Part shown: one piece after another, positions 17,782-19,630 of the stretch
Numbering within the stretch: position 1 is the first letter of the stretch
Layout of the letters: each line of letters starts with the position of its first letter
Origin: Candidatus Poribacteria bacterium
GTDB lineage: Bacteria; Poribacteria; WGA-4E; WGA-3G
Length of the DNA: 64,000 nt
Direction: 5' to 3'
NCBI GenBank assembly: GCA_958295945.1
Contig: OY282386.1
Coordinates: 62,001 to 126,000, forward strand
The notes under the pieces: model-generated
The model's input: the letters and a program-made list of their open reading frames with translations, nothing else
The model's database searches: none
What the model was told of the DNA's origin: nothing
Position numbers and translations under genes: made by a program

Positions 17782-18675
17782 TTATCGATCTGCTACCATG
17801 TTTGCTCTCATCGGTTTAAGTGTTCCATTATGTAAATAATTAGCATATCTTTGGAATTGCCATTCTAAGTTGGAAATTTGTCCTGCCCAGCCCCGTAAAG
17901 GTTCAGAGCATGTGGTATCATTAGCCAATGTCTGGAGTGTTGGTATATTTTCGCCAATCCGATCAGCAATCTCGTTGTAAAAATTACGTCTGGATTCCTT
18001 GTATTCACTGCGTTCGTAAATTGGAAAATTCATCTCATATTTTCGTTTGATAGTCTGCGTCCAATATCGTAAGTGTTGACCGTTTACGATGTAAGGATCA
18101 ACCCTCACTAAATTGACATATTGGGTTGAGAATACACCAATTGGAACTGTACAACTAATTTCAGGATCTTGTGCTTTTTGCATTCCAAATTCTTGCTTCA
18201 AGTGATTTCTGAACTTAACATAAGTGCTTTGAGGAACACCAAAATTACTTGGGTGCATAAATAGACGATCAATATCCTCAACGGTATCAAGTGCTTCAGT
18301 TTCTCGGTTAAAGCCTTTTGCCCCCGCAGACCAAAGACACACAGCGACATCAGCCGCTTCTATCAATGCCATGGGATTCATTTCAAATAGTACCGGACCA
18401 TAAGGATTTGGAACGCTATTCGCTCCTTGTGCAAACCCTCTGCCAAAATCCGATAAATTTACAAAGACCTTATCCCAAACCTTATTTTTAAAGTCTATAT
18501 CATCAGTATCAAACGCAGTAAATTGAGCTTGTCTGCTTTCTAACAATGCCCGTGAAGGAATACCACCAAGAGCGAGATACGAATCAAAATCAATTAACTG
18601 ACATGCATGATATAATGTAACGTGTCTCTCTTGTAAGAGATCAACCAAAGATTGAATCTCATTGCCACCTATCAC
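17782..18675 (-). CDS. Unknown protein, possibly DarT-like ADP-ribosyltransferase (DUF4433 type)
   Basis: A 297-residue protein starting at a GTG with AAGGAG seven bases upstream. The N-terminus [20 protein letters not shown] resembles the opening of DarT/DUF4433 ADP-ribosyltransferases (Tyr-His, then an I/L-x-x-hydrophobic-x-x-GG element). A later [13 protein letters not shown] resembles the strand bearing their catalytic Glu. The middle ([26 protein letters not shown]) and the C-terminal helical part are not familiar to me. If correct it would modify DNA or protein with ADP-ribose from NAD. It sits 19 bases after the gene encoding a clamp-motif protein, and both interrupt the ATP synthase operon. 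No DarG-like macrodomain antitoxin is nearby. The family call is tentative. Confidence 0.4.
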
Positions 18676-18694
18676 ACTTCTGCTCCTTCAGATG

Positions 18695-19630
18695 CTAAAA
18701 CAAACTAAGTTGATGACCATCGGAAACGTTAGTCGTTTGACCACTGTTCACTTCAAGGTGCTGTTCAAGTCGTGCTGATTCATCACGGATCAATTCAATA
18801 AAACGTGGACGTGCTTTTGTCCACATTGATTTTGCTTCATCAAGTGAAAGCCCAACTTTACCAAGTCTCCATTCTATCTCTCTATCCCACCATCGGGATG
18901 GCACTTGGTCATAAACAATACCACTTTCACAATAAAAACTAGCCCAATTCAGTTGACGCCACGGGAATCCCTTCTCTTTTGCAAGTTTACTAATTGCTAC
19001 TTTTCCTTGAGGCGTATGGCGATCCAACGCAACCCAAAACGGAAATTTTGCTTCCTCTTTTGTTTCCTTTTTATTTTCTAACTGTTTCGGTAGACCATCC
19101 ATTACAACTAAGTATGCTGTAGCTTGTATAAATGCTTTATCCCAAGGCCAACCCCCTTTCCGATACGCTGCAGAAGTTCGTTCAACAAAACGCATGGTTT
19201 TATCACATGAACATTGAGAAAAAATCCATTTCCAATAATTATCTTTATTCTTAATTGCAGCACAAATATGTTTTATGTGTGTATCTTCATCCGAATCATT
19301 CAATACTGAATCGTCGCCTTCAGATAGCGCGTATGCAAGAGAACCAAGGCCAGCTGCATCTTTAAATTTTATGTGACATGCTGCCTGACTGAGAATTTCT
19401 TTCAATGCTGATAGTTGTGCATCTTTTTGGGATGGTAATTCCCATTCCCCCATAAGAGGATAACATTCCTCCGCTATGATAACTCCCGCACGTTGTTTTA
19501 ACCAACTTGCATCACCAATTTCATAAAGGTGGTCTACTACTCTAACAACAAGATCGGATTCACCACGGCGAACCGCTTTTTGAAGCAGAGATCTACAATC
19601 CTGATGCGTATTTGGATTTGCTTTGCGCAT
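18695..19630 (-). CDS. Unknown protein ending in a sliding-clamp-binding motif
   Basis: A 311-residue soluble protein. It begins with RSLLQKAVRRGESDLVVRVV and IIAEECYPL, reminiscent of the helical lid/C-terminal domain of RarA/MgsA clamp-loader-like ATPases, but has no Walker motifs. The last residues are GHQLSLF followed directly by the stop; QL(S/D)LF at an extreme C-terminus is the classic motif that docks proteins on the beta sliding clamp. Trp and charged residues are frequent (PSRWWDREIEWRLGK). Together these suggest a DNA replication or repair accessory factor tethered to the clamp. It lies between atpG and the DarT-like gene, same strand, 68 and 19 bases away. The RarA likeness is weak; the clamp motif is exact. 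Confidence 0.5.
   Translation of the reverse strand: MRKANPNTHQDCRSLLQKAVRRGESDLVVRVVDHLYEIGDASWLKQRAGVIIAEECYPLMGEWELPSQKDAQLSALKEILSQAACHIKFKDAAGLGSLAYALSEGDDSVLNDSDEDTHIKHICAAIKNKDNYWKWIFSQCSCDKTMRFVERTSAAYRKGGWPWDKAFIQATAYLVVMDGLPKQLENKKETKEEAKFPFWVALDRHTPQGKVAISKLAKEKGFPWRQLNWASFYCESGIVYDQVPSRWWDREIEWRLGKVGLSLDEAKSMWTKARPRFIELIRDESARLEQHLEVNSGQTTNVSDGHQLSLF

Follow-up and report, generated by a model that had tools for sequence, protein, structure and literature searches.

Two adjacent genes, here named A and B, are located between atpG and atpD in a sponge-associated Candidatus Poribacteria bacterium and form a mobile pair. According to profile and structure comparisons, the pair combines a remote homolog of DarT ADP-ribosyltransferases (A) with a protein that has the fold of the RarA C-terminal domain and ends in a conserved motif of the clamp-binding type (B). 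There is, in our judgement, an about even chance that A and B constitute a toxin-antitoxin-like module, in which a DarT-like toxin is gated at the replication fork by a clamp-tethered antitoxin.

Organization of the locus

The window, i.e., the whole stretch of 64,000 nucleotides that was analysed, contains the following features at this locus:

19699-20577, minus strand: atpG
18695-19630, minus strand: gene B, 311 amino acids, upstream partner of A in the atp operon
18698-18712, minus strand: QLSLF, a consensus beta-clamp-binding motif, at the C-terminal end of B (...HQLSLF, followed by the stop)
18681-18686, minus strand: AAGGAG, a Shine-Dalgarno-like sequence preceding the GTG start of A
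17782-18675, minus strand: gene A, 297 amino acids, GTG start
18607-18609, minus strand: His23 of A in LYHAC, invariant, corresponding to the His of the DarT strand with the HFT motif
18328-18330, minus strand: Ser116 of A (in the invariant SAGA), aligned with N104 of DarT1
18160-18162, minus strand: Glu172 of A within QxPEISC, a candidate for the catalytic glutamate of an ART, invariant in eight Poribacteria copies
16328-17737, minus strand: atpD

The order on the minus strand is atpA, atpG, B, A, atpD, which agrees with the preliminary description of two co-oriented genes between atpG and atpD with a spacing of 19 bases; the strings of protein A quoted there could also be found in its translation. 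In relatives, B extends approximately nine residues beyond the clamp motif and its stop codon overlaps the start of A (ATGA). The end of B exactly at QLSLF and the gap between the genes are particular to the genome of the window, in which a small change truncates B. The G+C content of A and B is 39-41%, similar to the window mean, and that of the flanking atp genes is 45-48%. A further gene, encoding a retropepsin-like aspartyl protease (Asp_protease_2, E=4.6e-7), is located between atpD and atpC (window 15802-16215, minus strand); the relative G041 has no gene between atpD and atpC at that position.

Distribution, mobility and selection

Separate searches with A and with B matched the identical ten of 85 Poribacteria genomes, all of which belong to one family (f1). 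Both genes are adjacent in all ten carriers, always in the order B-A, and the co-occurrence has a Fisher p of 3e-13 over the 85 genomes, a value that ignores kinship. Profile searches for more members of A or B in the Poribacteria genomes revealed no further credible one. Seven of the ten pairs are located between atpG and atpD, two of which reach the contig end on one side. The preliminary description had raised the question whether the pair travels together outside atp operons, and it does: the three remaining copies lie elsewhere, again as neighbours, and one of them adjoins transposase, GmrSD_N, methylase-HNH and HSDR_N_2 genes. In other f1 genomes, the distance between atpG and atpD is around 52 bp, or the gap is occupied by a DJC28_CD gene, by other ORFs or by a transposon-type (tnpB-like) gene. 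The atpG-atpD gap (window 17738-19698; loci L077-L105) is an insertion-prone site. The joint occurrence, the copies outside atp and the sites that are empty or hold other cargo thus identify A and B as a travelling pair and not as part of the ATP synthase.

Three congeners, namely the genome of the window (G000), G041 and G038, were compared for signs of recombination. A shows mostly 91-96% identity between G000 and G041, where the flanks are around 86% identical. In the comparison of G041 with G038, the range of 91-96% applies to most of B, and A reaches only 63-77%. The two genes are thus exchanged between strains by recombination, independently of their flanks and partly of each other. Both genes are under purifying selection, with dN/dS values of approximately 0.06-0.20 for B and 0.10-0.26 for A. 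A is frameshifted in one carrier (G059) and internally deleted in another (G069), with B intact in both, and an intact A next to a broken B was not seen among the ten carrier genomes; the pattern comes from two draft genomes, one of them with a single frameshift.

Gene A is remotely related to DarT

Neither A nor B has a significant match in Pfam, NCBIfam, PADLOC or PHROGs, and a search of the genome with PF14487 picks a genuine DarT elsewhere, not A. A profile of A that includes a relative from Salinivibrio (profile A3) was aligned by hhalign with a diverse DarT1 set, taken from plasmid, E. coli and Poribacteria loci, and with DarT1 and DarT2 combined. The probabilities were 73% and 79%, respectively, over 122-195 columns and with scores of 41-42, and shuffled profiles reached a maximum of 20-24; omission of the Salinivibrio sequence lowered the probabilities to 22% and 53%. 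An earlier comparison with Poribacteria DarT only had given 1-32%, which is weak yet above shuffles. When a panel of 32 real protein families was run against the same DarT profile, only DarT and A stood out, the next family reached 1.9%, and the non-DarT control families scored below 21. By these profile comparisons, A is remotely homologous to DarT across the ART domain.

The alignment also places several residues. The invariant Asp61 of A aligns with the Asp in the RxD motif of DarT1. QxPEISC aligns with DarT QAEVLVF within two residues, so that Glu172 is set two residues off the DarT glutamate (E152 of DarT1); in the Salinivibrio relative, the alignment shows no obvious counterpart of Glu172. 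R52, M71, N104 and E152 are essential in DarT1 (PMC11543638). In the hhalign alignment, A lacks equivalents of R52, M71 and N104 and has the variable residue 59 (D/A/T), D/E76 and the invariant Ser116 at these positions, which makes DNA ADP-ribosylation by A doubtful, and its chemistry may differ from that of DarT. The preliminary description had likened this protein to DUF4433/DarT ADP-ribosyltransferases; the relationship is upheld by the profiles, but the Pfam cut-off is not reached and the DarT1 residues are missing, so A is best called DarT-like and not a DarT. The AF2 model of A (pLDDT 42) was unusable.

Searches of plasmids and phages by tblastn gave remote matches only, from Salinivibrio for A and from a Stenotrophomonas phage for B. 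The Salinivibrio relative of A stands alone on a plasmid. Another lone remote relative is encoded in a viral contig (L075 4001-4711) between a likely dGTPase (HD) gene, a call made by eye, and a gene for a small membrane protein, and is possibly prophage defence cargo; searches of viral contigs with the patterns A1 and A2 confirmed no relatives. Weak additional matches of A3 in two genomes (G045 and G000) were rejected, as they lie in other proteins, one of them membrane/TPR-like (260 aa) and the other AAA-type. A Burkholderia GNAT match and a Cronobacter chemotaxis-protein match were judged to be due to chance.

Gene B has a RarA-type C-terminal fold without the ATPase

The AF2 model of B is all-helical and of fair quality (pLDDT 75, pTM 0.77). 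A profile HMM search of B against the PDB returned RarA C-terminal fragments only, with weak E-values of 0.3-1, and the top Foldseek matches of the model in the PDB were RarA/MgsA C-terminal structures (probability 0.69-1.00, E >= 0.3). VIA-align gave Z-scores of 11.1-12.7 to 2r9g, 8g28, 3pvs, 3bge and 3ctd, and the next unrelated chain reached 5.5; for a helical model, Z-scores up to about 13 can reflect an ordinary helical arrangement. However, all of the top structure entries are RarA, and the sequence profile leads to this domain independently of the structure. According to the model, residues 1-106 of B, and partly those up to 186, have the fold of the RarA/MgsA/WRNIP1 C-terminal domain (PF12002). 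The relationship rests on structure and on the PDB profile ranking: B does not reach the PF12002 cut-off, and a direct hhalign comparison gave no significant match between B and the RarA of Poribacteria. Unlike RarA/MgsA, B has no AAA+ ATPase core, no Walker motifs and no AAA match within its 311 amino acids, falls below the Pfam threshold and carries the clamp motif appended at its C-terminus. The RarA-like N-terminal part without Walker motifs that had been noticed in the preliminary description was thereby recovered by the profile search, Foldseek and VIA-align. By its likeness to RarA/MgsA/WRNIP1, B would be expected to associate with replication forks. B is neither a macrodomain nor a NADAR protein (no Pfam match; hhalign against NADAR gave a probability below 1%).

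The gp088-type proteins of the Stenotrophomonas phages Summit and DLP_5 are related to B along the greater part of the protein (23-25% identity, BFVD TM 0.57), and one Stenotrophomonas phage protein matches B at E=2e-9 in a pairwise comparison and MgsA_C at E=0.0095. Like B, the gp088-type proteins resemble the RarA C-terminal domain without the ATPase, but they have no A neighbour and no C-terminal QLxLF tail. RarA-C-terminal-like proteins without the ATPase can be found in Stenotrophomonas phages and also in giant viruses (L034 5860-6918 and BFVD matches).

The tail of B carries a predicted clamp-binding motif

The QLSLF sequence, which had already been recognized as a clamp motif at the very end of B, also forms the clamp motif at the C-terminus of PolC from B. 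subtilis (PMC12309361). The motif Q-L/F-x-L-F (QL[SNQ]LF or QFSLF) is kept in all seven atp-sited copies of B, with variable neighbouring tail columns, and is degenerate in all three non-atp copies. Its presence exceeds what chance would give: Q..LF within the last 25 residues is rare among 444 control ORFs, where it occurs in five, two of which are a B copy and a NADAR. B is thus predicted from its sequence to bind the replication clamp through this tail.

A tail of this type has precedent on the partners of DarT1. In six DarT1 systems of Poribacteria, the C-termini of the antitoxins read QLTLP, QLTFLP, QISLF, QLSLF, QLKLP and QLTLQF. In a set of 27 NADAR proteins, consisting of these six and of 21 plasmid genes (loci L060-L065 and L129-L149), 12 have Q..[LMI]F in the last 25 residues, compared with 10 of 444 control C-termini (Fisher 4e-11; shuffled tails 2.3%); a wider penta/hexapeptide pattern covers 15 of the 27. 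These p-values are optimistic, since the patterns were picked after the first tails had been seen. In both cases scanned, the tail follows after the end of the Pfam NADAR-DarT1 domain, and two E. coli copies have weaker versions, QHTLI and QKTLI, at their ends. Given the clamp-like tails in 12 of the 27 NADAR proteins, a clamp-type tail on a DarT-type partner is not unique to the locus. The paper characterising DarT1 NADAR antitoxins says nothing about an interaction with the clamp, and a search of the open-access literature for NADAR or antitoxin together with sliding clamp found nothing. The DarT1-like domains at the Poribacteria loci L060, L062, L063 and L065 share an open frame with preceding long WD40-repeat regions (608-735 codons), and these genes are apparently WD40-DarT1 fusions.

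Comparison with known toxin-antitoxin systems

In common with type II-like toxin-antitoxin systems, A and B form a strictly linked two-gene operon, which is mobile and patchily distributed. The pair shares with DarTG1 (DarT1 and NADAR, PF14487/PF22397) the arrangement of two adjacent co-oriented genes, the remote homology of A to DarT1/DarT2 and a partner with a short C-terminal clamp-like tail. Unlike in DarTG1, A falls below the Pfam cut-off and lacks the three DarT1 equivalents, the partner resembles the RarA C-terminal domain instead of NADAR, and the gene order is reversed, with the partner first. With DarTG2 (DarT2 and the DarG macrodomain), the pair shares a DarT-type ART with a partner, and DarG is also able to sequester its toxin; B, however, contains no macrodomain. 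The DarT2-like domain that the genome of the window encodes is separate from the pair and shares one frame of 397 codons with a DarG-like macrodomain, as a fusion (G000:C1:1588500-1592000, with DarT2 at G000:C1:1589358; L126). The Poribacteria DarG copies show no consistent clamp motif. The SocAB system of Caulobacter likewise has a toxin-antitoxin component that is aimed at the sliding clamp via a clamp motif; however, it is the toxin that binds the clamp in SocAB, and here it is probably the antitoxin or partner.

Proposed role and alternative explanations

In the proposed mechanism, the pair would be a conflict or defence module that has come to lie between atpG and atpD. A would be a divergent DarT-like ADP-ribosyltransferase acting as toxin, and B, a RarA-C-terminal-type helical protein without ATPase, would be its partner and probable antitoxin. 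B would dock on the replication clamp via QLSLF and hold A inactive or locally confined at the fork. Perturbation of the fork or clamp, such as phage takeover or replication arrest, would release or activate A, which might then modify DNA or a replisome component. The broken A genes next to an intact B, and the absence of the reverse, are as expected if B protects. Several observations speak against the module: the three DarT1 residues are missing from A, Glu172 is not evidently kept in the Salinivibrio relative, B has no de-ADP-ribosylation domain, and its motif is degenerate wherever the pair lies outside atp. As to the missing domain, sequestration is enough for DarG of EPEC to neutralise DarT (PMC7003065), and B would thus not have to act as a hydrolase.

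The clamp motif and the RarA-like fold of B imply targeting to the fork and could also suit a fork adaptor that takes A to the clamp to modify ssDNA or replisome proteins, in defence or in lesion control. Recruitment to the replisome is known for proteins of the RarA family (PMC8735627), and DarT acts on ssDNA and stalls replication (PMC7003065). Immunity would then lie elsewhere, or A would be active only conditionally. We regard such an adaptor as unlikely, as B is kept where A is broken and the similarly tailed partners of DarT1 are antitoxins. The retention of B without a functional A is also the opposite of what would be expected if B itself were toxic and blocked the clamp in the manner of SocB, with A as its control factor. 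SocB does inhibit replication by binding DnaN via a normal clamp motif (PMC9690074), but the motif is lost in three copies of B, and this reading is very improbable.

RarA is a highly conserved repair gene, and canonical RarA appears to have been lost lineage-specifically in f1, including the genome of the window: PF12002 is above the cut-off in none of the 59 f1 genomes, compared with 24 of 26 other Poribacteria. The two non-f1 genomes without RarA are 61-64% complete. Weak PF12002 matches in several f1 genomes were dismissed; the one in G083, which was read in detail, is a HEAT-repeat protein, and the rest were judged to be chance. B, with its RarA C-terminal fold, could accordingly be a reduced RarA substitute and A a linked accessory or passenger. 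This is rather improbable, since 49 of the 59 RarA-less genomes also lack B, B has no ATPase and the linkage of A and B is strict. Strand and operon position in seven copies might suggest that A and B are normal atp operon genes, transcribed together with the others and involved in regulating the ATP synthase. This is hardly conceivable; both proteins show replication-type features, and an accessory role in the enzyme was rejected on account of the non-atp copies and of the empty or otherwise occupied sites in relatives.

Implications

DarTG systems are phage-defence toxin-antitoxin systems, and we know of no account of what restricts their activity to replication forks or sets it off there. 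The strict pairing of A and B and the clamp-like tails of NADAR antitoxins suggest a testable answer, namely an antitoxin stationed on the clamp. More tentatively, and with clearly more doubt than belief, the pair could belong to a new class of clamp-tethered toxin-antitoxin systems, in which DarT-type enzymes are combined with clamp-anchored antitoxins of the RarA-C-terminal-like or NADAR type. In such a class, an intact fork or clamp would be what signals immunity, and the toxin would be triggered once the replisome is lost or replaced, as a phage might bring about. The fold predicted for B further suggests that the C-terminal domain of RarA can serve in proteins that lack the ATPase, a finding relevant to the role of that domain.
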